Source: Pseudomonas cremoricolorata | GTDB taxonomy: Bacteria > Pseudomonadota > Gammaproteobacteria > Pseudomonadales > Pseudomonadaceae | NCBI RefSeq assembly: GCF_000759535.1 | Contig: NZ_CP009455.1 | Location: 2,418,001 to 2,482,000 of the forward strand | DNA length: 64,000 nucleotides | Direction: 5' to 3' | Part shown: one piece after another, positions 339-12,304 of the stretch | How positions within the stretch are numbered: position 1 is the first letter of the stretch | Layout: each line of letters begins with the position of its first letter | Translations under genes and position numbers: made by a program | Notes under the pieces: generated by a model | The model's input: only the letters and a program-made list of their open reading frames with translations | Told to the model about the DNA's origin: nothing | The model's database searches: none

Positions 339-2037
339 CCGGCGCCGCCTGCGCCCGGCGCTGGCGATTGCGCCACAGCCGGTAGGCGCGGATGCCGGCA
401 CGCACCGAGCCGAACAGCAACTCGCCTTCCATCTCCCGCGCCAGCCCTGAGCGCACCAGCATGCGCAGGAAACGCCCACGGGCGCGGGCGATGGCGAAAT
501 GCACACCCTGCGCGGCCAGGGTGGCGCGCACTTCGCGCAAGGCTTCAAGGCCCGTCACATCCAGACTGCTCACCGCCTCGGCATCGAACAGCACGGCCTT
601 GATCTGCTGCTCGCGTTGCATCGCTTCGAGCAGGCGCAGTTTGAAGTAGTCGGCATTGAAGAACAGGATCGCGTCGTCGAAGCGGTACACCAGCAGCCCC
701 GGCACCGTGCGCGCCTCGGGGTGGTGGCGCAGGTTGACCTGGCCCTCGACCCCGGGCAGCCAGCCGAGCACCGCGTCGGTCGGCTGATAGATGCTGTACA
801 GCAGGCGCAGAATGGCCAGGGTCACGGCGAAGATGATCCCCGGCAGCACGCCCAGGCCGAGCACGCCGGCGGTGGTCAGCAGGCACAGGCAGAACTCGAA
901 GCGGCTGAGCGTGAGGATGCTGCGCAGCGACTGCACATCGATCAGCCCCCAACCGGCCATCAACAGCACGGCGCCGAGGGCGGCCTGGGGAATCCACGCC
1001 ATGGGCGCGGTGAACAGCAGCAACACCAAGGCAATCACCAGGGCGGCGACGATGCCCACCAGTTGGCTGCGCCCGCCGACCATGTCGTTGACCGCGGTGC
1101 GTGAATCGGCGCCGCTGATGGCAAAGCCTTGCGACAGCCCGGCGGCCAGGTTGCTCACGCCCAGGGCGACGAACTCGTGGTTGGCGTTGATCGCATAGCC
1201 GTGGCGCGCGGCGAAGCTGCGCGCGGTGAGCATGGCGCTGCAAAAGCTCACGGTGGCGATGCCCAGGGCGTCGCGCAGCAGACTCTTGGTTTCTTCCAGG
1301 CTGATCTGCGGCCAGGCCAGGTGCGGCATGCCACCCGGCACCGGGCCGAGCACGGCGACGCCGAAGCGGTCCAGGCCGAACAGCCCGCTGAGCGCGGTGA
1401 ACACCGCCACCACCACCAGCGCCACCGGCAGGCGCGGGTAGCGCCGTGGCAACACGATGAGCATGGCCAGCGCAGCCAGGCCCAGGGTCAGGGTCAGCCA
1501 GCGGATTTCGCCCAGGCGATTGAGGAAGTCGAGCAGGCTCAGCACGAAGCCTTCACCGACGAAGCTGAAACCCACCACCTTGGACAACTGCCCGGCGATC
1601 AGGCTCAGGCCGATGCCGTTGAGGTAGCCGATCAGAATCGGCCGCGAAAAGAAGCTGGCGATGAAGCCGGCGCGGGCCAGCCCCGCGCCGATCAGCATGG
1701 CCCCCACCAGCAGGGTGACGACTACCGACAGCTCGGCGGTGCGCTGTGTGTCACCCATCGCCAGCGGCGCTACGGCCCCGGCGATCATCGCGCAGGTGGC
1801 GGCATCCGGGCCGACCATCAACTGCCGCGAACTGCCGATCAGGGCGTAGACGATCATCGGCAGCACGCAGGCGTACAGACCATATTGCGCCGGCAGGCCG
1901 ACGATCTGCGCATAGGCGATGGCAATGGGAATCTGAATGGCTGCTACCGACAGACCCGCCTGCACATCGGCCGAGAACCATTCACGGCGGTAACGCAGCA
2001 GGTTGGCCAGGCCTGGAAGCCAGCGGGAAATGAACAT
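322..2037 (-). CDS. SulP family anion transporter with C-terminal STAS domain
   Basis: Inner-membrane transporter of 571 aa, the usual SulP length. The N-terminal 420 residues are a string of hydrophobic helices that open with the SulP-type core (SVAAIQIPIAIAYAQIVGLP, about residues 30-49). Residues about 450-555 form a cytoplasmic STAS domain with the typical DVTGLEALREV segment. Family members carry sulfate, bicarbonate, dicarboxylates or other anions by proton or sodium coupling; the substrate cannot be read from sequence. The ATG at 2037 follows an AAAGGA ribosome site. It is a single gene, converging on the partial gene at the left edge and separated from the GntR gene by 102 bp. Confidence 0.9.
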   Translation of the reverse strand: MFISRWLPGLANLLRYRREWFSADVQAGLSVAAIQIPIAIAYAQIVGLPAQYGLYACVLPMIVYALIGSSRQLMVGPDAATCAMIAGAVAPLAMGDTQRTAELSVVVTLLVGAMLIGAGLARAGFIASFFSRPILIGYLNGIGLSLIAGQLSKVVGFSFVGEGFVLSLLDFLNRLGEIRWLTLTLGLAALAMLIVLPRRYPRLPVALVVVAVFTALSGLFGLDRFGVAVLGPVPGGMPHLAWPQISLEETKSLLRDALGIATVSFCSAMLTARSFAARHGYAINANHEFVALGVSNLAAGLSQGFAISGADSRTAVNDMVGGRSQLVGIVAALVIALVLLLFTAPMAWIPQAALGAVLLMAGWGLIDVQSLRSILTLSRFEFCLCLLTTAGVLGLGVLPGIIFAVTLAILRLLYSIYQPTDAVLGWLPGVEGQVNLRHHPEARTVPGLLVYRFDDAILFFNADYFKLRLLEAMQREQQIKAVLFDAEAVSSLDVTGLEALREVRATLAAQGVHFAIARARGRFLRMLVRSGLAREMEGELLFGSVRAGIRAYRLWRNRQRRAQAAPATDAP

Positions 2038-2139
2038 GGGCAGTCCTTTGAAAATGGTTCATCCGAATGGCGCTGCTTTACCGCCGCAGCACCTGATATG
2101 CCGCCAAACCCGGCGACGACGCAAGCGCCGGCTGCTGCC

Positions 2140-3159
2140 TCAGGCCAGCCGTTGCAGGTAGCTGGGCACCTGCGGTTCAGGCAGCACAGAGAGCACCTTG
2201 AGCCGCTGGAGGGTGCGCTCGCGGGCCTTGCCGATGTGGTCGCGCAGGCATGAGCAGGCCGATTCCACGGTGCCGTACAGCAACGCCTCGAATACCAGGC
2301 GGTGTTCCATCAGCATCGCCTGGTCGTTGCTGCTGTGCAGCGCCTCATGAAGAATGCGGCCGACGTTCATGGGAATCTGACACTGGCGAATCACCGCTGC
2401 CATGCGCGTGTTGGCGATGCCGGCCAGGCAGGTGACGTGCAGATCGTGCTCGAGCTGCTCGATGTCGGCACGCGACACCTCGCGCCCGGCGTCCTGGGCG
2501 TCGACCACGCGCTGCAACATCGCCTGCAACTCAGTGCGTGACACCCGCTCGACTCCTTGGCGCAGGGCGTCGGGTTCGAGCAGCATGCGCAGCTCGTAAT
2601 CCTGCTTGACCGCCTGCGCGGTCAGCGGCCCGGCCAGCCACTGCGAGTAGGGTTCCTTTTCCACCAGGCCCTTGTCGCGCAGGCGCATCAGCGCTTCCCT
2701 GACCACGTTGCTGCTGACGTTGAGCGCCTCGGCCGCACGCTGGCCGTCGATGCGGTAGTGACCGAACACCATGAAACGAATCACCGTTTCCGCCAATTGC
2801 TCGTAGATGCGCTCACCCAACGGGCGGTAATCGATCAGTTCTTCCTGTCGCTCCAGGCCCAGCAGTTGCCGGGTCAGCGGCACCCGCCGCGGGGTGGCCT
2901 CGGTGCCGTGGGGGTCGATGAGAAAGCCGCGGCCTTCGAAGCGGCGGATCAGCCCTTCTTCATGCAGCAGGTTCAACGCCTGGCGCACCGGCACCCGGCT
3001 GGTGCCGAACAGCTCCGCCAGCGGCCCCTCGACCAGCACCAGCCCGGTCACTGCCTGCCCGCCCAGAATCGCCTCGCGCAGGGTGGTGCGGATGACTTCG
3101 TAGCGTGAAGTTGGGCGCTCGTCCAAGGGCGGTGTCGCGGACATCGAGTCAGGTCTCAT
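2140..3159 (-). CDS. GntR-family regulator with two winged-helix domains and an FCD-type effector domain
   Basis: A 339-aa regulator. Residues about 18-82 form a GntR winged helix (SRVPVRQALNLLHEEGLIRR). A second similar domain occupies about 112-176 (NVVREALMRLRDKGLVEKE). The C-terminal all-helical region looks like an FCD ligand-binding domain. Ordinary FCD members have one DNA-binding domain and are about 220-250 aa, so the doubled head is unusual. The gene is divergent from the amidase operon starting at 3446, and the shared 286-bp region carries AAATG/CATTT palindromes, so it is the likely repressor of that operon and of itself (inference). Start 3159 is uncertain; an ATG at 3144 is possible, and neither has a strong ribosome site. 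Confidence 0.85.
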   Translation of the reverse strand: MRPDSMSATPPLDERPTSRYEVIRTTLREAILGGQAVTGLVLVEGPLAELFGTSRVPVRQALNLLHEEGLIRRFEGRGFLIDPHGTEATPRRVPLTRQLLGLERQEELIDYRPLGERIYEQLAETVIRFMVFGHYRIDGQRAAEALNVSSNVVREALMRLRDKGLVEKEPYSQWLAGPLTAQAVKQDYELRMLLEPDALRQGVERVSRTELQAMLQRVVDAQDAGREVSRADIEQLEHDLHVTCLAGIANTRMAAVIRQCQIPMNVGRILHEALHSSNDQAMLMEHRLVFEALLYGTVESACSCLRDHIGKARERTLQRLKVLSVLPEPQVPSYLQRLA

Positions 3160-3262
3160 GGGGCGGAATGGGCAAGTTTCTCACAAGCACGGCGGGAATG
3201 TGCCTACACCCGGTAACACTTCCCTGATCGATCCTGAGGCAAGGCTGTTACCGAACGCCTCA

Positions 3263-3275
3263 AAATGGATCATTT
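3263..3275. promoter_or_regulatory. Candidate GntR operator O1 (AAATG-N3-CATTT)
   Basis: AAATGGATCATTT: two perfect inverted 5-bp arms around 3 bp. It lies about 100 bp upstream of the GntR start, in the divergent region. The arms are identical to those of the palindrome at 3422-3433. FCD-type GntR proteins bind short AT-flanked palindromes, so binding by the adjacent regulator is a reasonable inference. Confidence 0.5.
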
Positions 3276-3404
3276 ACAAAAACATCCAATTTAAGCGCCA
3301 GCGTCGCTATGGATTGTCTCGGCGCACGGCTCGACCATGCGCCAGAGCGGTTTGGCCTGGTAGAAAACCTGCCGGCCACAACTTGGCACGTTCAGTGCTT
3401 TCTC

Positions 3405-3433
3405 AAATGTACGTATTAAATAAATGTACATTT
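3405..3433. promoter_or_regulatory. Candidate GntR operator O2 with extra half-site, upstream of the amidase gene
   Basis: Positions 3422-3433 read AAATGTACATTT, a perfect 12-bp palindrome. Positions 3405-3412 repeat its left two thirds (AAATGTAC), 17 bp upstream centre to centre. The palindrome ends just before the AGAGGT ribosome site at 3435-3440 and the ATG at 3446. The arms match those of the site at 3263-3275. Confidence 0.55.
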
Positions 3434-3445
3434 TAGAGGTGGCGG

Positions 3446-4795
3446 ATGAATGTCGATGGCGTGTCCCTGGCCCAGGCGTATGCCGAGGCAACGGCTGATC
3501 CGCTGAGTGTGGCGCAGCAGGCGTTGCAGGCCGCGCAGCAGCTACCGGCGGCGTTCGTCAGCTTGTGCCAGAAGCGCGCACTGCGTGAGGCAGAAGCCGC
3601 CCGCCAGCGCTGGCAGGCCGGTCAGCCGCTGTCGCCGCTCGATGGCGTGCCGGTGGTGTGGAAAGACCTCTACGACCTTGCCGGGCAAATCACCAGCGCC
3701 GGGGCCAAGGTGCGCATGCATGACGCCCCCGCAGCCTGCGACTGTGCCTTGGCGAGCGTGCTGAGCCGCGCCGGCATGGTCAGCTTGGGCAAGACCAACC
3801 TGAGCGAGCTGGCCTATTCGGGCCTGGGCCTCAACCCGCACTTCGGCACCCCGGCCAACGCCGTGGCGCAAGGCCCGGTGCGGGTGCCCGGCGGCTCTTC
3901 TTCGGGCTCGGCGGTGGCGGTGGCCAAGGGTGTGGCGCCCATAGCCATGTCGACCGACACGGCCGGTTCCATTCGCATCCCTGCCGCCTTCAATGGCCTG
4001 GTCGGCTACCGCAGCAGCAGCCAGCGCTATGACTTCAGCGGGGTCACGCCGCTGGCGGTGTCGCTCGATGCGCTGGGCCCGATCACCACCAGCGTGCGCG
4101 ATGCCATGGCGGTCGATGCCCTGTTGCTGGGCAAGCCGTTCGCCGCCAGGCCGCTGCCGGTTGCCGGTTTGCGCCTGCGGGTCGACGACGCGCTGCTGGA
4201 GGATGCGCGCATTCAGCCGGAGGTCAAAGCCAATCTGCTGGCCGCCGCCGAGCGCCTGCAAGCGGCCGGTGCGAGCCTGGAATACGGCCGCGTCGAGGCG
4301 TTCCATCAGGCCCTGGCGCTGATCGAACAGGTCGGCTGGCTGGGCAGCGCTGAGGCCTTCGCCCGCTACGAGTCGCTGCTCGACAGCCCGGACGCCGAGC
4401 ACCTCGACCCACGTGTACGCACCCGCCTGGAGGCCGCCCGGCATTTCCCGGCCAGCCGCCAGGTACGCCTGTACCAGGCCTCGCGTAGCCTGCGCCAGCA
4501 CATCGCCGATGAGCTGGACGGCGCGATGCTGCTGACCCCGACGGTTGCCCATGTCGCGCCGTTGCTGGCGCCCCTGCAAGACGATGCAGCGCTGTTCGCC
4601 GCGAGCAATCTGGCCACCCTGCGCCTGACCATGCCCGGCAGCATGCTCGACATGCCCGGGGTGGCTCTGCCCAGTGGCACCGGCGAGGCCGGCATGCCCA
4701 CCAGCGTGCTGGTCTCAGGCCCCAGTGGCAGCGACGCGCACCTGCTGCGCGTCGCGCTGACCCTCGAACCCTATGTACGCGGCGTAGCCCGCTAA
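3446..4795 (+). CDS. Amidase-signature family amidohydrolase
   Basis: A 449-aa member of the amidase signature family, hydrolysing a carboxamide to acid plus ammonia. The Ser-cisSer-Lys triad is visible: Lys73 (VWKDLYD), the Ser-rich loop GGSSSGSA at 149-156 giving the cis-Ser (Ser151 by spacing), and nucleophile Ser175 in TDTAGSIRIPA. No signal peptide, so cytoplasmic. It is the first gene of an eight-gene run, 29 bp ahead of the imidase-like gene. Beside a cyclic-imide hydrolase the natural guess is a half-amidase that removes ammonia from the ring-opened product. The exact substrate is unknown; glutamyl-tRNA amidotransferase subunit A is unlikely without gatB/gatC. ATG 3446 follows AGAGGT. 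Confidence 0.85.
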   Translation: MNVDGVSLAQAYAEATADPLSVAQQALQAAQQLPAAFVSLCQKRALREAEAARQRWQAGQPLSPLDGVPVVWKDLYDLAGQITSAGAKVRMHDAPAACDCALASVLSRAGMVSLGKTNLSELAYSGLGLNPHFGTPANAVAQGPVRVPGGSSSGSAVAVAKGVAPIAMSTDTAGSIRIPAAFNGLVGYRSSSQRYDFSGVTPLAVSLDALGPITTSVRDAMAVDALLLGKPFAARPLPVAGLRLRVDDALLEDARIQPEVKANLLAAAERLQAAGASLEYGRVEAFHQALALIEQVGWLGSAEAFARYESLLDSPDAEHLDPRVRTRLEAARHFPASRQVRLYQASRSLRQHIADELDGAMLLTPTVAHVAPLLAPLQDDAALFAASNLATLRLTMPGSMLDMPGVALPSGTGEAGMPTSVLVSGPSGSDAHLLRVALTLEPYVRGVAR

Positions 4796-4824
4796 CCCTT
4801 CTGAATCTCAATGAGGTGTAGATC

Positions 4825-5706
4825 ATGGCGAAAGAAATCTTTGTCTCCATCGGCGTCGACGTCGATGCGGTCGCTGGCTGGCTGGGGTCCTACGGCGGTG
4901 AAGACTCCCCGGACGACATCTCCCGCGGCCTGTTCGCCGGTGAAGTCGGCTCGCCGCGGCTGCTCAAGCTGTTCGAGAAGTACAACCTGCGCACCACTTG
5001 GTTCATCCCCGGCCACTCGGTGGAAACCTTCCCCGAACAGATGAAGGCGGTGGTCGCCGCCGGCCACGAAATCGGCGTGCATGGCTACAGCCATGAAAAC
5101 CCCATCGCCATGACCCCCGAGCAGGAAGAGATCGTCCTCGACAAGTCGATCGAAATCATCACCCAGCTCGCCGGCAAGCGCCCCACCGGCTACGTGGCGC
5201 CGTGGTGGGAATTCAGCAACGTCACCAACGAACTGCTGCTGCGCAAGGGCATCAAGTACGACCACAGCCTGATGCACAACGACTTCCATCCCTACTACGT
5301 GCGGGTCAAGGACAGCTGGAGCAAGATCGACTACAGCCAGCACCCCGACACCTGGATGAAACCGCTGGTGCGTGGCGAGGAAACCGATCTGGTGGAGATT
5401 CCCGCCAACTGGTACCTCGATGACCTGCCGCCCATGATGTTCATCAAGAAGTCGCCCAACAGCCACGGCTTCGTCAACCCGCGGCACCTGGAAGAAATGT
5501 GGCGCGACCAGTTCGACTGGGTCTACCGCGAACATGACTACGCCGTGTTCCCCATCACCATCCACCCCGACGTCTCCGGCCGTCCGCAGGTGCTGCTGAT
5601 GCTCGAGCGCTTCATCGAGCACATGCAGGGCCATGCGGGGGTGAAGTTCGTGACCATGGACGAAATCGCCGACGACTTCATTCGCCGCCAGCCGCGCAAA
5701 GGCTGA
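4825..5706 (+). CDS. PgdA-like / cyclic imidase metal-dependent hydrolase (polysaccharide deacetylase fold)
   Basis: Cytoplasmic 293-aa NodB-fold hydrolase without signal peptide. The metal ligands are visible: Asp14 (GVDVDAVAG) and His86/His90 ([10 protein letters not shown]), the same positions I recall for Helicobacter pylori PgdA, to which it looks closely related along its whole length ([49 protein letters not shown]). From memory, the cyclic imide hydrolase described from Pseudomonas putida YZ-26 is also 293 aa and of this fold. Intracellular location, the amidase upstream and the importer downstream favour imide ring opening over peptidoglycan deacetylation; that is inference. TGAGGTG precedes the ATG. 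Confidence 0.85.
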
Positions 5707-5757
5707 CGCCGCCGACCTTCTGCCAACCCTGCCCACAACAACAAGAGACCCACCACG

Positions 5758-7113
5758 ATGACCACGCAGGCCACCACCACGACGCCCGTCGGCGCCCCCG
5801 GGGCATGGAAACCGGTACACCTCGATTCCAAGGATGTTCGCTATGCCACCTGGATCGCCTTCTTCGCCTGGGTGTTCGCTGTCTATGACTTCATCCTGTT
5901 CGGCACCTTGCTGCCGGTGATGGGTGGGCATTTCACCTGGAGCGAGGCCGAGCAGGCCGAGATCGCCACCTGGGTCGCCGTGGGCGGCGCGGTGGTGGCC
6001 TTCATCGTCGGCCCATTGGTAGACAAGATCGGTCGCCGTGGCGGGATCATCTTCACCATTGGCGGCACCGCGTTGTGTTCGGCGCTTACTGCGGTATGCG
6101 CCGGCATGGGCAAGGGGCCGCTGATTGCCGTGCGCTCGGTGGCGGGTCTGGGGTATGCCGAGGAAGGGGTCAACGCCACCTACCTCACCGAGGTCTATGC
6201 GGCCTCGACCGATCCCAAGCTGATCAAGCGCCGCGGCTTCGTCTACAGCCTGGTGCAAAGCGGCTGGCCAGTCGGTGCTCTGATCGCCGCCGGGCTCACC
6301 GCCTTGCTGCTGCCGCACATCGGCTGGCAAGGCTGCTTCGTGTTCGCGGCGGTGCCGGCGCTGGTGGTGGCGATTCTGGCCCGCAAGCTCAAGGAAAGCC
6401 CGCAGTTCCAGGTGCACCAGCGTATTCGCCAACTGCGTAAGGCTGGTGATGAAGCGGCTGCGCGCAGCCTGGCCAGCGAATACCAGGTCGATTACGACGA
6501 GCATGCCAAGGCCGGCGTTGCCGCCGCCTTCCGCGGTGCCGCGCTGCGCCCGACCGTGGTGTTGAGCCTGGCGATTCTGCTCAACTGGTCGGCGATTCAG
6601 GTGTTCAGCGTGCTCGGCACCTCGGTGATCGTCAGCGTTCACCAGCTGTCGTTCCAGAATTCGCTGTGGATTCTGGTGCTGTCGAACCTGGTCGGCTTCA
6701 TCGGCTACCTGTTCCATGGCTGGCTGGGCGACCGCCTGGGACGGCGCAATACCGTCGCGCTGGGCTGGATGTGTGGCGGCGTGGCGTTCTTTGCCATGCT
6801 GCAGGCGCCGAGCCAACTGACCACCGTGGTGGCGCTGTACAGCCTGGGCCTGTTCTTCCTCACCGGGCCTTATTCGGCGATGTTGTTCTTCATGGGCGAA
6901 AGCTTCCCCACCAGTATCCGTGCCACGGGCGGTGCCATCGTCCACGCCATGGGGCCGATTGGCGCCATCGTCGCCGGCCTGGGCATCACCAGCGTGCTCA
7001 ACGCGGGCGGTCAGTGGCACAGCGCGGCGCTGTGGTTCGGCGCGTTGCCGTGCTTCCTCTCGGGCGTGGTGATGTTCGCCGCGCGCCATGTCGAGCCGCA
7101 TTCGGTCAAGTAA
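5758..7113 (+). CDS. MFS transporter, probable uptake of the cluster's substrate
   Basis: A 451-aa inner-membrane carrier with about 12 hydrophobic helices. MFS signatures are present after helix 2 (GPLVDKIGRRGG) and in the second half (GWLGDRLGRR). The central loop (about residues 205-250) is charged and cytoplasmic. It resembles sugar-porter/aromatic-acid type symporters in length and layout, but the substrate cannot be told. It lies 51 bp after the imidase-like gene and 32 bp before the first dehydrogenase gene on the same strand, so it most likely imports the compound degraded by this operon. Confidence 0.85.
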   Translation: MTTQATTTTPVGAPGAWKPVHLDSKDVRYATWIAFFAWVFAVYDFILFGTLLPVMGGHFTWSEAEQAEIATWVAVGGAVVAFIVGPLVDKIGRRGGIIFTIGGTALCSALTAVCAGMGKGPLIAVRSVAGLGYAEEGVNATYLTEVYAASTDPKLIKRRGFVYSLVQSGWPVGALIAAGLTALLLPHIGWQGCFVFAAVPALVVAILARKLKESPQFQVHQRIRQLRKAGDEAAARSLASEYQVDYDEHAKAGVAAAFRGAALRPTVVLSLAILLNWSAIQVFSVLGTSVIVSVHQLSFQNSLWILVLSNLVGFIGYLFHGWLGDRLGRRNTVALGWMCGGVAFFAMLQAPSQLTTVVALYSLGLFFLTGPYSAMLFFMGESFPTSIRATGGAIVHAMGPIGAIVAGLGITSVLNAGGQWHSAALWFGALPCFLSGVVMFAARHVEPHSVK

Positions 7114-7145
7114 CTCAACAGATCAAGCGATAAGGAGTTCTCGCG

Positions 7146-7907
7146 ATGTCTCAACCTGTAGCTCTCATCACCGGCGCCGCCAGCGGCATCGGCCAGGCCG
7201 TGGCCGTGGCCTACGCCAGGCAGGGCGTGCGTGTGGTCGGCGGATACCTGCCGGGCGCCGGCCACGACCCGCTCGACACCGAGCGCCTGGTGCAAGCCGC
7301 CGGTGGCGAGTGCCTGATGCTGCCGATGGACGTCACCGACAGCGCTTCGCTCGACGCCATCGCCAAGGCAGCGGTAGAGCGCTTCGGCCGCCTCGACTAC
7401 GCGGTGGCCAACGCCGGCCTGCTGCGCAAGGCCGCGCTGCTGGAGATGACCGACGCGCAGTGGAACGAGATGCTCGACGTCGACCTCACCGGCGTCATGC
7501 GCACCTTCCGCAGCGCCAGCCGCTACCTGGGCGAGGGCGGTGCGCTGGTGGCCATTTCATCGATCGCCGGCGGCGTCTACGGCTGGCAGGAGCATTGCCA
7601 CTACGCCGCGGCCAAGGCCGGGGTGCCGGGGCTGTGCCGCTCGCTGGCGGTGGAACTGGCGCCACGTGGTATTCGCTGCAATGCGGTGATTCCGGGCCTG
7701 ATCGAAACCCCGCAATCGCTCGATGGCAAGAACTCGCTCGGCCCCGAAGGCCTGGCCAGGGCCGGCAAGAGCATCCCGCTCGGTCGGGTCGGGCGCGCCA
7801 GCGAAGTGGCCGAGCTGGTGTGCTACCTGAGCAGCCCGCAGGCGAGCTACATCACCGGGCAAAGCATTACCATCGACGGCGGTCTGACCGTTCGCTGGCC
7901 GGAATGA
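7146..7907 (+). CDS. Short-chain dehydrogenase/reductase, first of two
   Basis: A 253-aa classical SDR. Cofactor motif TGAASGIG at residues 9-16, structural NAG at 89-91, catalytic Ser138/139, Tyr153 and Lys157 (HYAAAKAG), and a typical C-terminal IDGG segment. It should oxidise an alcohol or reduce a ketone with NAD(P). A strong AAGGAG site precedes ATG 7146. It sits between the transporter and a second SDR gene of different sequence, so the two probably act on successive or related intermediates. A hydroxyl- or keto-bearing substrate is implied; its identity is unknown. Confidence 0.85.
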
Positions 7908-7950
7908 ACCCCTCGCCGCACGCCTGGCGTGCGGCCATCAGGAGTGAACC

Positions 7951-8700
7951 ATGCAACTACTGAACAACCGCCGCGCCGTGGTCACCGGGGCCGCCAGCGG
8001 CATCGGTGCGGCCATCGCCCATGCCTATGCCGAGGCCGGCGCGCGCCTGGTACTGTGTGACCGCGACGGCGAGCGCCTGGCCGCGGTGGCCACCGCCTGC
8101 CGGGCGTTGGGCGCCGAAGTGCTGGAATGCATGGCCGATGTCGGCAGCCGCGAAGGCGCACAAGCCGGCGTGGATGCCTGCGTGCAAGGGCTGGGCGGCA
8201 TCGACATTCTGGTCAACAACGCCGGCATGCTGACCCAGGCCGACTGCGTCGACCTGACCCAACAGATGTGGGACGACATGCTGCGCGTCGACCTCACCAG
8301 CGTCTTCGTCGCCAGCCAGCGCGCCTTGCCGCATATGCTGGCACAGCGCTGGGGGCGGATCATCAACATCGCCTCGCAGCTGGGCATCAAGGGCGGCGCG
8401 CAACTGACCCACTACGCTGCAGCCAAGGCCGGTGTGATCGGCTTCAGCAAGTCGCTGGCCCATGAAGTGAGCAAAGACAACGTGCTGGTCAATTGCATCG
8501 CCCCGGGGCCGATCGAAACGCCGCTGGTCGATGGCATCAGCCAGGCCTGGAAGGCCGCCAAGGCCAAGGAGCTGCCGCTGGGTCGCTTCGGCAGGGCCGA
8601 GGAAGTGGCGCCGGTGGCGGTACTGCTGGCGTCCGAGCCGGGCGGCAATCTGTTCGTCGGCCAGACCCTCAACCCCAACTCCGGCGACGTCATGCCTTGA
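7951..8700 (+). CDS. Short-chain dehydrogenase/reductase, second of two
   Basis: A 249-aa classical SDR with TGAASGIG at 12-19, NNAG at 89-92, Ser142, Tyr155 and Lys159 (HYAAAKAG). It is FabG-like in layout but ends in GQTLNPNSGDVMP instead of the usual VDGG tail. It is clearly not a recent duplicate of the preceding SDR. 43 bp separate it from that gene and 8 bp from the next, with an AGGAG site before ATG 7951. Likely a second redox step on the same catabolic route; substrate unknown. Confidence 0.85.
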   Translation: MQLLNNRRAVVTGAASGIGAAIAHAYAEAGARLVLCDRDGERLAAVATACRALGAEVLECMADVGSREGAQAGVDACVQGLGGIDILVNNAGMLTQADCVDLTQQMWDDMLRVDLTSVFVASQRALPHMLAQRWGRIINIASQLGIKGGAQLTHYAAAKAGVIGFSKSLAHEVSKDNVLVNCIAPGPIETPLVDGISQAWKAAKAKELPLGRFGRAEEVAPVAVLLASEPGGNLFVGQTLNPNSGDVMP

Positions 8701-8708
8701 GGTGAACC

Positions 8709-9008
8709 ATGTGTGGACTGTGCGGCCTGATCGGCGAAGACGCGCACTGGAGCGATCCCATCGACAGCAGCCTGCCGGGGCGGCGCGAACGCTTGCGCCG
8801 CATCGCCGCGATCAACCAGGTGCTGACGCCGTTTCGGCTCAAGGTCAGTGACGTGCAAGGAGCGAGCTATCTGCTGCAAGGCCCGACCGGCAAGCAGGGC
8901 ATCGCCTCGGGCCTGGAGCAACTGTGGCAGGTGGCTGAGGACATCCTCAGCCGCCCGCTCGACCCCCTCGACCCGCGCATCCTCGAGCACCTGGAGGCGC
9001 GGGCATGA
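8709..9008 (+). CDS. Small conserved-looking protein beginning MCGLCG, unknown function
   Basis: A 99-aa protein that begins with two closely spaced cysteines (MCGLCGLIG), followed by a basic helical region (RRERLRRIAAINQ) and an acidic tail. I do not recognise a named family. The start imitates the Cys2 start of class II glutamine amidotransferases, but the protein is far too short for that fold. It overlaps the CobW gene by 4 bp (ATGA) and follows the SDR gene by 8 bp, so it is coupled to both. Its paired cysteines suggest a metal-binding or metal-transfer partner of the CobW protein. GAGGTGAACC precedes the ATG. Confidence 0.7.
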   Translation: MCGLCGLIGEDAHWSDPIDSSLPGRRERLRRIAAINQVLTPFRLKVSDVQGASYLLQGPTGKQGIASGLEQLWQVAEDILSRPLDPLDPRILEHLEARA

Positions 9009-9994
9009 GCGTGCAGATCAACGTCCTCACCGGTTTTCTCGGCAGCGGCAAGACCACCTTGCTGCAACGGGTGCTGGTCAACGAAGACATGGGCGAAACA
9101 GCGCTGCTGATCAACGAATTCGGCGAGGTCGGCATCGACCACCTGCTGGTGCAGGAAATCGCCCCCAACACTGTGCTGCTGCCCAGCGGCTGCGTGTGCT
9201 GTTCGGTACGCGGCGACCTGAAGCAGGCGCTGATCGACCTGCACGACAAACGCAGCCGCGGCCTCATTCCAGCGTTTCGCCGGGTGTTGCTGGAAACCAC
9301 CGGCCTGGCCGACCCGGCGCCGATCCTTGCCACCTTGCAGCGCGACCCGCAACTGCGCGGACGTTATCACCTGGGGCTGCTGGTGACTGTGGTCGATGCC
9401 AAGCATGCCGCGTTGCAAGAACGGCTGCACCCCGAATGGCTGGGCCAGGTCACGGCCGCCGACCGCCTGCTGGTGAGCAAGGTCGACCGCGTCGATGGGC
9501 AGGCGGTGAGCGAGCTGATGAAGCATCTGCACACCCTCAACCCGGCTGCGACCGTGGCGCTGACCAGTGCTGTGGTGGCGGGTGACCAACAGTTGCTCGG
9601 CGAGGGCCTGAGCAGCCGCCTGCCGGATGCCGAGGTGGCCAGATGGCAGCTGTTCGCCCCGACCCGTCAGCCGCGCCACGGCACGGCGCAGGTCTGCGCG
9701 CTGGAGTACGCCCAGCCGCTGGATTGGCTGGCGTTCGGGGTTTGGTTGTCGATGCTGCTAAGATGCCACGGCGAGCGCATCCTCCGGGTCAAAGGAATTC
9801 TCAACGTGATCGACGCCGAACAGCCCATCGTCATCCACGGTGTCCAGCACTGCCTGCATGCGCCGGTGCACCTCGAACACTGGCCGGGCGGCGAGCGCCG
9901 TTCGCGGCTGGTGATCATCGTCCGCGACCTCGACACCACGCTGCTGCGCCGCTCGTTCGACACCTTCCTGCAACGCCTGGGGCGGGCGGCATGA
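9005..9994 (+). CDS. CobW/COG0523 family GTPase, probable metallochaperone
   Basis: A 329-aa G3E GTPase. Walker A GFLGSGKTTLL at 10-20, switch region INEFGEVGID at 36-45, the metal-binding CxCC motif (CVCC, Cys63/65/66), ETTGLADPAPI, and an NKxD-type guanine motif read here as SKVD. A CobW C-terminal domain follows. Members deliver or insert zinc, cobalt or other metals into target enzymes in a GTP-dependent way. Placement in an operon with a metal-dependent hydrolase makes that enzyme the obvious client (inference). It is coupled by 4-bp overlaps to the MCGLCG protein upstream and to the binding-protein-like gene downstream. Confidence 0.88.
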   Translation: MSVQINVLTGFLGSGKTTLLQRVLVNEDMGETALLINEFGEVGIDHLLVQEIAPNTVLLPSGCVCCSVRGDLKQALIDLHDKRSRGLIPAFRRVLLETTGLADPAPILATLQRDPQLRGRYHLGLLVTVVDAKHAALQERLHPEWLGQVTAADRLLVSKVDRVDGQAVSELMKHLHTLNPAATVALTSAVVAGDQQLLGEGLSSRLPDAEVARWQLFAPTRQPRHGTAQVCALEYAQPLDWLAFGVWLSMLLRCHGERILRVKGILNVIDAEQPIVIHGVQHCLHAPVHLEHWPGGERRSRLVIIVRDLDTTLLRRSFDTFLQRLGRAA

Positions 9995-11175
9995 GTCAAC
10001 CGCTGACCTTACGCGTGCTTGGCACCTCGGTGACGCTGCTCGAATCGATTCGCCTGCGCGCCGAGCAGGCGCTGGGCATTCGCATCGACTACCAGGTGCA
10101 CGACGTGCAGACCGTGCAGCGCATCGCCCTGATGCACCCGGAACGCTACGACCTCTACGACCAGTGGTTCCACAGCATGGACTTCGTCTGGCCGGCGGGG
10201 GCGATCCAGCCCATCGACGTGCGCCAGATCGATGCCTGGGGTGAAATCAACGGCCTGGCCAAGCACGGCAGGTTGCACCCAGACGACCCGCTGGCCGGTG
10301 GCAGCCTGCCCTGCGACAGGCTGTTCGTACAGCACGATGGCAGCCTCGGGCAGCGCCCCAGCCACTTCATCAGCATGCTGCCGCTGACCCACAACGCCGA
10401 CAGCTTTGCCTACCGTCCCGACCTGCTGCCGCCCGGATTTTCCTGCGAACAAGAGAGCTGGTCGTGGCTGGTCGACCCGGCCTGGTGCGGTCACGCGGCG
10501 CTGCAAAGCGACGCCGCGATCGGCGCGCTGGACGCTGCGCTGGCGGTACAGGCCAAGGGCCTGGCGCACTTCGAGGTGATCGGCAACCTGCGCCTGGATG
10601 AAATCGACCAGCTCTCCAGCGCCCTGATCAAACTGCAACGCCAAGGCCACTTCGCCGCCTTCTGGTCCGACGACCGAGACGCCGGCCAGCTCATGCTCGG
10701 GCCCAAGGTGCATATCGAAAGCGTTTGGTCGCCCGCGCTGATGCAACTGCACCGCGAAGGCATCCAGTACCGCCAGGCCGTGCCCAAGGAAGGCTACCGC
10801 GGCTGGTTCGGCGGCCTCTCGCTGTCGCGCGCCGTGCACGGGCCGGTCAAGGCGGCGGCCTATGCTTACTTGAACTGGTGGCTATCCGGCTGGCCCGGCG
10901 CGATGATGGCCCGCCAGGGCTTCTATATCTCCAACCCGCCGCGTGCCCGCGAACACCTGTCTGCCGCCGAATGGGACTACTGGTACGAAGGCAAACCCGC
11001 CACCGAACACCTGCCCGGCAGCGACGGCCAACCCCTGATCGAACCCGGCCAGATCCGCGAAGGCGGCTCCTACAGCCAGCGCGTCAGCCGCATCAGCGTG
11101 TGGAATGCGGTGATGGACGAGCATAACTATCTGGTGCGCAAGTGGGCGGATGTGTTGCGGGCTGGGCGGGGGTAG
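9991..11175 (+). CDS. Leaderless relative of extracellular solute-binding proteins (PotD type)
   Basis: A 394-aa protein whose fold signs are those of an ABC-transporter substrate-binding protein: an N-terminal beta-strand (LTLRVLGTSVTLLESI) and a C-terminal PotD-like segment (KAAAYAYLNWWLSGW, then RQGFYISNP). It has no signal peptide: the start is MSQPLTLRVL, fixed by a 4-bp overlap with the CobW stop, and no permease or ATPase gene lies nearby. It is therefore probably cytoplasmic, and may sense or hold the substrate or assist metal loading rather than serve transport. Alternatively its ABC partners are elsewhere and export is non-classical. Last gene of the run, 56 bp before the tRNA-Gly. 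Confidence 0.7.
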   Translation: MSQPLTLRVLGTSVTLLESIRLRAEQALGIRIDYQVHDVQTVQRIALMHPERYDLYDQWFHSMDFVWPAGAIQPIDVRQIDAWGEINGLAKHGRLHPDDPLAGGSLPCDRLFVQHDGSLGQRPSHFISMLPLTHNADSFAYRPDLLPPGFSCEQESWSWLVDPAWCGHAALQSDAAIGALDAALAVQAKGLAHFEVIGNLRLDEIDQLSSALIKLQRQGHFAAFWSDDRDAGQLMLGPKVHIESVWSPALMQLHREGIQYRQAVPKEGYRGWFGGLSLSRAVHGPVKAAAYAYLNWWLSGWPGAMMARQGFYISNPPRAREHLSAAEWDYWYEGKPATEHLPGSDGQPLIEPGQIREGGSYSQRVSRISVWNAVMDEHNYLVRKWADVLRAGRG

Positions 11176-11231
11176 GGTGTTGCTGATGGGGCGGGTAGGG
11201 GATTTGAGCTGAGGCGCTCTGGAGGAGAAGC

Positions 11232-11305
11232 TGGAGCGGGTAGAGGGAATCGAACCCTCAACTAAAGCTTGGGAAGCTTTCGTTTTGCCACTAAACTATA
11301 CCCGC
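11232..11305 (-). tRNA. tRNA-Gly (anticodon CCC)
   Basis: Read on the minus strand from 11305. Acceptor GCGGGTA pairs with TACCCGC, the D-arm is present, a 5-bp anticodon stem AAAGC/GCTTT encloses loop TTCCCAA (anticodon CCC), the T-arm GAGGGTTCGATTCCCTC is complete and CCA is encoded at 11234-11232. 74 nt in all. Its 3' end faces the imide cluster; phaG lies on the same strand upstream. tRNA-Gly(CCC) is a known integration target of ICEclc-type elements, but no integrase is seen here. Confidence 0.95.
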
Positions 11306-11419
11306 TTCGCAGTGCGACTTTTTACCAGAAGCCCCCGCCGATTGAAAGCGCCACGCTGAAATAATCCCTCTACCTTGCCTTTTCGCGCCCCTGCCGGGTG
11401 CCGCTTTCGTGTGCCCGGT

Positions 11420-12304
11420 TCAAAGCGCCAGGGCATGGCTGGCTGGGGTGTGGTGGGGGTGGCTGCGCGGAGCTCGCGGGGTGGGTTGCAGGAAGTCGAG
11501 CATGACCTGGCCGGTTTGCTCGCAGGCGAGCTTGTGTTCCATGTCGAGGAAGTGCCCGGCGGCGTCGATCACCGCGAACTGGCAGTCGGCGATGTGTCGG
11601 GCGAATTGCCGGGCGTCGTTGGCGGTGGTGTATTCGTCGTGTTCGCCGTTGATGAACAGCAGCGGGATGTCAATGTGGCGCCCGCCCTTGAGGGCGCGGT
11701 CGAGATCGTGGTCGAGCACCTGGCTGATGTGAAAGTGCATCTGCGCGTATTCGTGGCGGTCGAGGCTGCTGACGTGGCGATAGTTGAAACGCTTGAACAG
11801 CGACGGCAGGTGCTTACCGATGGTCTCGTTGACCAGATGGCCGATGCGCGGCCGGTCGCAACGGGCCAGGTACTGGCTGCCGCGGCTCAGGTAGTCGTGC
11901 ATCGGCGCGTTGATCAGCGGTGAGAACGAGCTGACGATGGCCTTGCCGATGCTGCGCGGGCGGTGGGCCAGGGCCAGCAATGCGCAGGCGCCACCCCAGG
12001 AGAACGACATCAGTTGGTCGGCGCCGAAGTGCTCGATCAGCTCCAGCAGAATGTGCGCTTCGGTCTCTTTGCTGAGCAGCCGCTCGTGGTGGTTGTGCGG
12101 CCGCGACTTGCCGGCGTACGGCTGGTCGTACAGCACCACGTTGCAGCGCGGGTGCAGGTTGCGCACGGTCTGGGCGAACGAGGCGGTGGTGGCCATCGAG
12201 CCGTTGACCAGGATGATGGTGTGCTCGGCCGCCTTGGCGCGATAGCACTCGGTGTAGACCCGGTACTGACCTTGAATATCAAGCACTGCGATTTCTGGCC
12301 GCAT
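11420..12304 (-). CDS. phaG: PhaG, (R)-3-hydroxyacyl-ACP:CoA transacylase / thioesterase
   Basis: A 294-aa alpha/beta-hydrolase-fold enzyme that diverts (R)-3-hydroxyacyl-ACP from fatty-acid synthesis toward medium-chain polyhydroxyalkanoate or 3-hydroxyacyl products. It closely matches the P. putida PhaG sequence as I know it from the start (MRPEIAVLDIQGQYRVYTE) through the nucleophile region SFSWGGA and the HFLDME motif near the end; it is also related to RhlA. The frame stays open upstream to 12748, but only from 12304 does the sequence look like PhaG, so this ATG is chosen. It stands alone between rsuA and the tRNA. Cytoplasmic. Confidence 0.93.
   Translation of the reverse strand: MRPEIAVLDIQGQYRVYTECYRAKAAEHTIILVNGSMATTASFAQTVRNLHPRCNVVLYDQPYAGKSRPHNHHERLLSKETEAHILLELIEHFGADQLMSFSWGGACALLALAHRPRSIGKAIVSSFSPLINAPMHDYLSRGSQYLARCDRPRIGHLVNETIGKHLPSLFKRFNYRHVSSLDRHEYAQMHFHISQVLDHDLDRALKGGRHIDIPLLFINGEHDEYTTANDARQFARHIADCQFAVIDAAGHFLDMEHKLACEQTGQVMLDFLQPTPRAPRSHPHHTPASHALAL

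Follow-up and report, generated by a model that had tools for sequence, protein, structure and literature searches.

Cyclic imidase enzyme activity has long been known. In Aspergillus nidulans, the short-chain dehydrogenase/reductase (SDR) HxnW makes 3-hydroxypiperidine-2,6-dione, the imidase HxnM opens it, and the amidase HxnN releases the nitrogen (PMC9304392). HxnM carries the domain CE4_HpPgdA_like and is 64.2% identical to a cyclic imide hydrolase of Pseudomonas putida (PMC8478523). Statements on cited papers refer to the sections of them covered here. The locus described here lies in a 64,000-nucleotide stretch of Pseudomonas cremoricolorata (contig NZ_CP009455.1, positions 2,418,001 to 2,482,000), referred to as the window, and consists of eight genes headed by a divergent GntR-type regulatory gene. 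Like the fungal Hxn system, the operon holds SDR, imidase, and amidase genes by family, and transporters of the major facilitator superfamily (MFS) belong to the fungal regulon (PMC9304392). Unlike the operon, the Hxn pathway is presented in the covered sections without mention of CobW, an MCxxC protein, or a binding-protein homologue (PMC9304392), and its upstream pyridine hydroxylases and reductase are not among the operon's eight genes, to which this comparison was limited. On balance, we lean toward a catabolic operon under GntR control whose substrate is a cyclic imide or a hydroxylactam that is converted into one.

The P. putida YZ-26 cyclic imide hydrolase (AAY98498) is of the same HpPgdA-like type by way of the published HxnM comparison (PMC8478523), and no operon is described in the covered sections of the papers on it. 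AAY98498 probably belongs to this operon type because every match among 199 Pseudomonas genomes at E 1e-60 is the operon's gene, one in each. No described bacterial operon of this composition was found among the literature matches listed, the original imidase and half-amidase papers being outside that scope, and an earlier description is possible. For genes of Rhizobium johnstonii pRL12, no paper with expression data was found via guessed locus tags.

All eight genes lie on the forward strand between 3446 and 11175, with intergenic gaps of 29, 51, 32, 43, 8, -4, and -4 bp, and the divergent regulatory gene (2140..3159, reverse strand; PF00392 and FCD) is the left boundary of the set; both statements are from the open reading frame (ORF) listing. 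The genes encode, in order, an amidase-signature amidase (3446..4795; PF01425 and NF004766), proposed as the half-amide hydrolase; an HpPgdA/cyclic-imidase-type metal hydrolase (4825..5706; Polysacc_deac_1 and a match to 3qbu), proposed as the ring opener; an MFS transporter (5758..7113; MFS_1), proposed as the importer; SDR oxidoreductase 1 (7146..7907; adh_short_C2, 221.9 bits); SDR oxidoreductase 2 (7951..8700; adh_short, 201.1 bits); a 99-amino-acid MCxxC protein (8709..9008), proposed as the CobW partner; a COG0523 (CobW/HypB/UreG-type) GTPase (9005..9994; PF02492 and PF07683), proposed as a metallochaperone; and a leaderless homologue of PotD/PotF/YdcS-type binding proteins (9991..11175; sub-threshold SBP_bac_8 only). 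The ORF of the last gene is listed from 9643, and its likely start is at 9991, overlapping the cobW stop. For the MFS protein, the nearest NCBIfam model is an aromatic acid/H+ symporter, at 148.2 bits versus a cut-off of 418.6. This anatomy bears out the sequence-only reading, an earlier account of the window that had described eight same-strand genes with gaps of 51 bp or less, several overlapping (two do), and its list of an amidase, a PgdA-like hydrolase, an MFS protein, two SDRs, a Cys-rich protein, CobW, a leaderless binding protein, and a divergent GntR gene agrees with the family matches. Its GntR and Cys-rich labels were right in kind and are refined here to a regulator with two helix-turn-helix (HTH) domains and a protein with an invariant MCxxC start. 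Of its span, 3160..11175, the right end stands, and the left end is corrected, since 3160 is intergenic and the first gene begins at 3446.

The chemistry of the pathway is our inference from the family matches; anatomy, conservation, co-occurrence, part exchange, and the operator-like site are observations. The MFS protein would import the compound, and one or both SDRs would form or modify the imide by oxidising either a side hydroxyl or, like the fungal HxnW, a ring carbinol; that an SDR makes the imide is a tentative proposal to which we give somewhat less than an even chance. The imidase-type metal hydrolase would open the ring to a half-amide (succinamate or glutaramate), a step that we regard as quite probable, and the amidase, or an asparaginase in other lineages, would free ammonia and leave a dicarboxylate, which we regard as likely. 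Working together, MCxxC and CobW would supply the ring opener with its catalytic metal, and the leaderless binding protein, related to exported transporter subunits, may bind substrate, intermediate, or metal in the cytosol.

The gene set is real, conserved, and often plasmid-borne. A comparison of the neighbourhood, proposed in the sequence-only reading, found it conserved in Pseudomonas, enterobacteria, Halotalea/Halomonas, and Paraburkholderia, with an altered form in rhizobia. The 80 loci compared are the best 80 of 246 confirmed in named genomes, and their gene content is conditional on the binding protein because this homologue was used to select them; gene presence was scored by tblastn with identity floors. 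All nine genes occur in the same order and on the same strands in 71 of the 80 loci, so the set is not a chance grouping, and the neighbourhood recurs elsewhere, on which the sequence-only reading had made its proposal depend. Six of the nine incomplete loci begin at a contig edge (L020, L048, L054, L060, L072, and L086). Among the loci of named species, the closest is a P. cremoricolorata locus (L007), with 96-100% protein identity over the nine genes.

The Pseudomonas genome survey and the plasmid searches are less biased than these loci picked by the binding protein. The imidase was found in 44 of 199 Pseudomonas genomes (E 1e-60), one per genome, the MCxxC gene in the identical 44 (E 1e-5), and the binding protein in those 44 plus G391 (E 1e-60); the latter genome has an exported ABC (ATP-binding cassette)-type relative of the binding protein and a merely 25%-identical deacetylase (L111). 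The three genes share one contig in 44/44 genomes, with the MCxxC gene 3.2-4.2 kb and the binding-protein gene 5.1-6.1 kb from the imidase. The copy in G307 (C1:1838669-1844896) looks damaged, with the binding-protein gene in two frames and an imidase match starting from residue 17. In wider draws, few genomes had the imidase (3/229 in the class and 6/299 in the phylum), and the phylum draw gave the MCxxC gene in the same 6 genomes plus one weak match. The latter (G522, E 3e-4) was rejected, as no recognisable cluster was present in L112.

Plasmid imidase rows had an MCxxC gene within 6 kb in 59 of the 60 listed and within 1.5 kb in 50 of them (E 1e-100; 60 of 72 records); the searches behind this pairing cover 60 of 72, 60 of 60, and 60 of 70 records, and the rows are not independent, since Rhizobium supplies 33 of the 72 imidase records. 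From 21 plasmid regions, which were hand-picked for diversity and whose counts are not frequencies, 15 carry imidase, MCxxC, and CobW genes. These core loci come from Pantoea, Klebsiella, Paraburkholderia aromaticivorans, Shinella, Rubrobacter, Skermanella, Bradyrhizobium, Leisingera, Acidiphilium, Rhizobium, Thioclava, Paracoccus, Haematobacter, Halomonas, and Mesorhizobium. In Mesorhizobium, the imidase lies about 5 kb away from MCxxC and CobW, and in Halomonas (L117), the set is divided into two divergent units flanking gntR. Eight of 11 further genome stretches, chosen from imidase, MCxxC, or binding-protein matches, also hold the core (L102-L108 and L110). The imidase-MCxxC-CobW core spans alpha-, beta-, and gammaproteobacteria and one actinobacterium (Rubrobacter); it occurs in Pseudomonas and on plasmids of bacteria that live in soil or with plants and of some clinical ones. 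Its presence in about one-fifth of the Pseudomonas genomes drawn (44/199) and on many rhizobial plasmids suggests that an unrecognised nitrogen source may be involved.

Function is indicated most strongly by the way in which parts of the set are exchanged. The amidase of the window passes NF004766 with 616.9 bits over a cut-off of 559, and the Lys-Ser-Ser triad of the amidase signature (K73, S152, and S175, positions assigned by motif) is present in 71/71 orthologues. In the 15 core plasmid loci, the amide hydrolase is an amidase in six (L088, L089, L090, L094, L097, and L117) and an asparaginase in five (L091, where the gene is divergent, L092, L093, L098, and L114), with neither in four and both in none. 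The asparaginases match the type II model only from residue 26-27 onward (3/3 examined) and for this reason seem to have no leader; both Pfam asparaginase domains are present in 2/2 examined. The interchange of two unrelated primary-amide hydrolases points to a half-amide intermediate, and the choice of an asparaginase as replacement points to one like succinamate or glutaramate. The two-step logic of imidase plus half-amidase in the sequence-only reading thus gains backing from an unrelated enzyme taking the amidase's place, and the imide reading of the gene set is, at the level of sequence comparison, well supported. Transporters are exchanged as well, with MFS proteins in Pseudomonas and enterobacteria; PotD-type ABC systems in Shinella, Rhizobium, Thioclava, Paracoccus, and L103-L106; and NCS1 proteins in Leisingera and Halomonas. 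The Leisingera NCS1 protein is nearest to the hydantoin permease Mhp1 (202 bits vs 41 for cytosine permease), and that of Halomonas is 69% identical to it.

The hydrolase matches Helicobacter pylori HP0310/PgdA (3qbu) with 535 bits over 292/293 residues. The metal ligands Asp14, His86, and His90 and the catalytic Asp12 and His247 of the HpPgdA/cyclic imide hydrolase type (EC 3.5.2.16; numbering of PMC3084791) are present, and D12, D14, H86, H90, and H247, together with W127 and W128, are invariant in 74/74 orthologues. HP0310 is thus homologous over nearly its whole length, with the same metal ligands by position; unlike the operon reading, it is described as a peptidoglycan deacetylase or acetylesterase. 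A role of the operon hydrolase in deacetylating cell walls or amino sugars, as implied by its database name, would accord with its Pfam family (Polysacc_deac_1) and with the reports on HP0310 (PMC3688963), but no secretion leader was seen by eye in six aligned proteins, which begin directly at the conserved domain, and the operon is one of small-molecule transport and SDRs. The HP0310 structure has neither a polysaccharide groove nor a leader (PMC3084791), and the partner enzyme is exchanged between amidase and asparaginase, so we consider a deacetylase extremely improbable; the cell-wall PgdA reading was set aside on the missing leader and the operon context. Polyamine-importer genes beside HP0310 homologues were noted by Shaik et al. 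(PMC3084791), which fits the PotD-type genes at the present loci. As a separate observation, the strong match of the operon hydrolase to HP0310 (PDB 3qbu/4ly4) suggests doubt about the deacetylase name of HP0310 itself.

Imidase and amidase are also coupled outside this set. In Variovorax, an amidase and a DUF1989 protein accompany a 61%-identical imidase relative, and a comparable second set in Leisingera contains an imidase copy that is more distant (29% identical); these sets support the imidase-amidase coupling independently of CobW. Clusters of DUF1989, imidase relative, and amidase without CobW were seen at L100:6282-9210 and L094:15486-18288 and form a separate second lineage.

Several observations weigh against the imide reading. 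No amide hydrolase of either kind is present in four of the 15 core plasmid loci (L087, L095, L115, and L118), none was recognised within the stretch in six of the eight further core loci (L102-L107), and the amidase is absent from 3 of 74 loci uncut by contig ends (L017 from Halotalea, L039, and L059). No imide-producing upstream enzyme was identified. Four plasmid regions (L099, L100, L101, and L116) have an imidase relative with no MCxxC or CobW gene within the fetched stretch, so the fold does not strictly need metal delivery; in the L116 strain, a second plasmid carries imidase and MCxxC genes. For HP0310, one study found no activity toward polysaccharide components, N-acetyl dipeptides, N-acetyl polyamines, or allantoin, which it terms a cyclic imide (PMC3084791), and another found action on chitin, acetylated xylan, and pNP-acetate (PMC3688963); no succinimide-type assay of the enzyme was seen in the covered sections of PMC3084791 or PMC3688963. 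Dihydropyrimidinase or hydantoinase-like genes beside L092, L096, L105, L113, and L114 would also suit a ureide substrate.

The last point bears on a reading in which the natural substrate is a cyclic ureide of the hydantoin or dihydropyrimidine type and the imidase fold acts as a PuuE-like ureide hydrolase. Among NCBIfam models, the hydrolase scores best against PuuE allantoinase, at 84.1 bits and far under the cut-off of 424.6, and the NCS1 transporters are of the hydantoin-permease type. A dihydropyrimidinase gene adjoins L092 and L114 and lies in L105, and a hydantoinase-like enzyme is encoded in L096/L113. However, the conserved set showed no carbamoylase; its partner enzyme is a primary-amide hydrolase from one or the other of two unrelated families, and HP0310 did not hydrolyse allantoin (PMC3084791). 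We consider a ureide substrate unlikely and retain the imide as the preferred one.

GTPases of the COG0523/G3E group work with small partners, as in HypB-HypA, UreG-UreE, and the nitrile hydratase activators. Like the HypB-HypA and UreG-UreE types of pair, the operon has a GTPase and a small Cys/His protein adjoining a metal hydrolase. Unlike the COG0523 pairs, its MCxxC protein matches no family model or PDB fold at E 0.001, and no nitrile hydratase is encoded among the eight genes. In the 99-residue protein, for which no Pfam or NCBIfam model gave a match, C2, C5, H13, and W14 are present in 78/78 orthologues, and in 12 diverse members, C2, C5, and W14 are invariant, with H13 replaced by Gln in both enterobacteria. 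Its predicted structure has a disordered N-terminal arm, which carries the cysteines, and a folded remainder, and Foldseek gave no PDB match at E 0.001; the fold is unplaced, not shown to be new, because the pLDDT of the arm is below 50. The CobW protein passes the cut-offs of PF02492 and PF07683, keeps its CxCC motif (C63, C65, and C66) in 80/80 orthologues, and falls below the named COG0523 equivalog cut-offs (TIGR02475, 104.6/332.1 bits; ZigA NF038288, 92.9/600; NF008578, 162.3/361).

In two Paraburkholderia plasmids (L096 and L113), MCxxC and CobW genes occur without an imidase and adjoin genes for GntR, an MFS protein, and a hydantoinase-like amidohydrolase, whose best PDB match is 1gkr, an L-hydantoinase. 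The two loci are 88-94% identical and therefore count as one observation. MCxxC-CobW therefore accompanies cyclic-amide hydrolases of two folds, the second in one lineage only. Together with the co-occurrence of MCxxC and imidase genes, this pairing lends weight to the metallochaperone idea of the sequence-only reading; a metallochaperone role of MCxxC-CobW is plausible and specific, and metal delivery by the pair to the ring opener seems to us slightly better than an even prospect. The alternative that CobW and MCxxC are a general metal-stress device hitch-hiking in the operon draws on the Zur-regulated zinc-homeostasis proteins among COG0523 GTPases (PMC2770081), on the five other cobW-family genes of the single-contig 4.78-Mb genome (the operon's is one of six), and on the imidase relatives without a nearby CobW. 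Against it, in the 199 Pseudomonas genomes and at the thresholds used, the MCxxC gene occurs only in imidase genomes and beside the imidase; the tandem operator-like pair is found only at this operon in the genome; and ZigA reaches only 92.9 of 600 bits. We consider such a device rather unlikely. The COG0523 survey does not mention this neighbourhood in its covered sections (PMC2770081). A fosmid with the N-acyl homoserine lactone amidase QsdB was also considered and rejected, since in the table covered it has a CobW-like gene but not this gene set (PMC3676327).

The binding-protein homologue has no export signal; its sequence opens directly with the mature domain, and its start overlaps the stop of cobW. 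Its AlphaFold model shows a confidently predicted binding-protein fold (pLDDT 93.6), with YdcS and PotF/PotD as the closest structures and a fold of the PotD type. A PDB sequence search with this protein alone gave no match, and a profile search reached PotF. Like PotD, PotF, and YdcS, the homologue is thus predicted to share their fold; unlike them, it lacks a leader, has His61, His378, Gln58, and Asp64 not seen in the exported relatives compared, and has no ABC transporter among the eight genes. A twin-arginine motif precedes the mature domain in all 10 exported-type proteins compared, the outgroup included (by eye). Hydropathy did not separate leaderless from exported proteins, because twin-arginine (Tat) leaders are weakly hydrophobic, and the leaderless assignment is based on the protein start position and on the motif read by eye.

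A small tree of 19 proteins, whose root lies on a very long outgroup branch, separates the nine leaderless proteins from the exported ones. Shinella, Rhizobium, Thioclava, and Paracoccus each encode a leaderless protein alongside an exported one, so the former is not merely the remnant of a lost transporter. In Paracoccus, a "hypothetical protein" (L114:438-1604) adjoining the exported one is the leaderless homologue, 46% identical to that of the window. Y56, Q58, H61, D64, and H378 are among the residues that never vary in the leaderless clade and that the exported relatives compared lack; the Paracoccus protein keeps all five but not R320, which is invariant in the first nine. PotF position 87, which is altered in engineered PotF variants, is the counterpart of H61 in a stretch of alignment that is weak alone (i-Evalue about 2). 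A cytosolic ligand role for this protein seems to us evenly balanced. A broader proposal joins two claims, namely, that MCxxC-CobW is a movable maturation module that metallates cyclic-amide hydrolases of two unrelated folds and that the leaderless protein is an exported receptor moved to the cytosol, with new histidines in or near the cleft holding a metal or a reactive intermediate; taken jointly, these are doubtful.

The regulator has PF00392 at 20-81 (in two stretches), a weaker HTH at about 131-172, and FCD at 188-309, and two PF00392 stretches plus FCD were found in 6/6 orthologous regulators examined. Two palindromic AAATGTACNTNTT sites, 17 bp apart, lie directly before the amidase start. 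The upstream copy, AAATGTACGTATT (3405..3417), is an exact match, and the downstream copy, AAATGTACATTTT (3422..3434), lies 17 bp past the first and 11 bp before the amidase ATG. With at most one mismatch, AAATGTACNTNTT has three matches in the window, all before the operon (0.04 expected), two of the three being one palindrome read on both strands. When up to three mismatches are allowed, the genome has a single tandem pair. At least one site with at most two mismatches is present in 75/75 upstream regions, the window included, a count with no shuffled control for single sites, and a pair 15-20 bp apart is present in 65/75 regions versus none in 20 mononucleotide shuffles of each. With the stricter TGTAC/GTACA core, 62/72 regions have at least two (mean 3.08 vs 0.61 shuffled); one palindrome may count twice here, and some regions, such as L016, have none. 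No sigma-70-type promoter was found in 2000-11500. A double-headed GntR regulator reading a double operator, a possible GntR type, would be consistent with this pattern.

If the imide reading is true, bacterial cyclic-imide catabolism gains a genetic home, proteins presently named "polysaccharide deacetylase" are explained, a metallochaperone pair with a named client is added and a new MCxxC protein family defined, and the leaderless homologue becomes a clear example of a binding protein relocated to the cytosol. The carriage of the genes on plasmids of many taxa (22 conjugative and 5 mobilizable among 72 imidase records) could also mean that the operon's role is to break down a toxic or antibiotic imide, such as a maleimide- or glutarimide-bearing natural product, and not to feed on it. 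However, nutrition accounts better for the presence of a putative importer, two SDRs, and an amidase that releases ammonia, and the fungal relatives serve nitrogen use (PMC9304392), so we regard detoxification as very unlikely.

Other features were seen around the plasmid loci. On an IncFIA/IncFII Klebsiella pneumoniae plasmid (L088:1676-19884), the full operon is flanked by IS26 and IS903B copies. Tn3 transposase and integrase genes lie upstream of the MCxxC-CobW/hydantoinase-like cluster of the Paraburkholderia plasmids (L096:6718-10340 and L113:6721-10319). Plasmid c of Rhizobium sp. ACO-34A (L116:4939-9879) pairs an asparaginase with an imidase in the absence of CobW and carries an amidase homologue close by on the opposite strand. 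In three alphaproteobacteria, biotin-dependent 5-oxoprolinase/carboxyltransferase-type genes adjoin the cluster (L095:14453-18312, L090:1-3209, and L097:1-510), hinting at lactam substrates.

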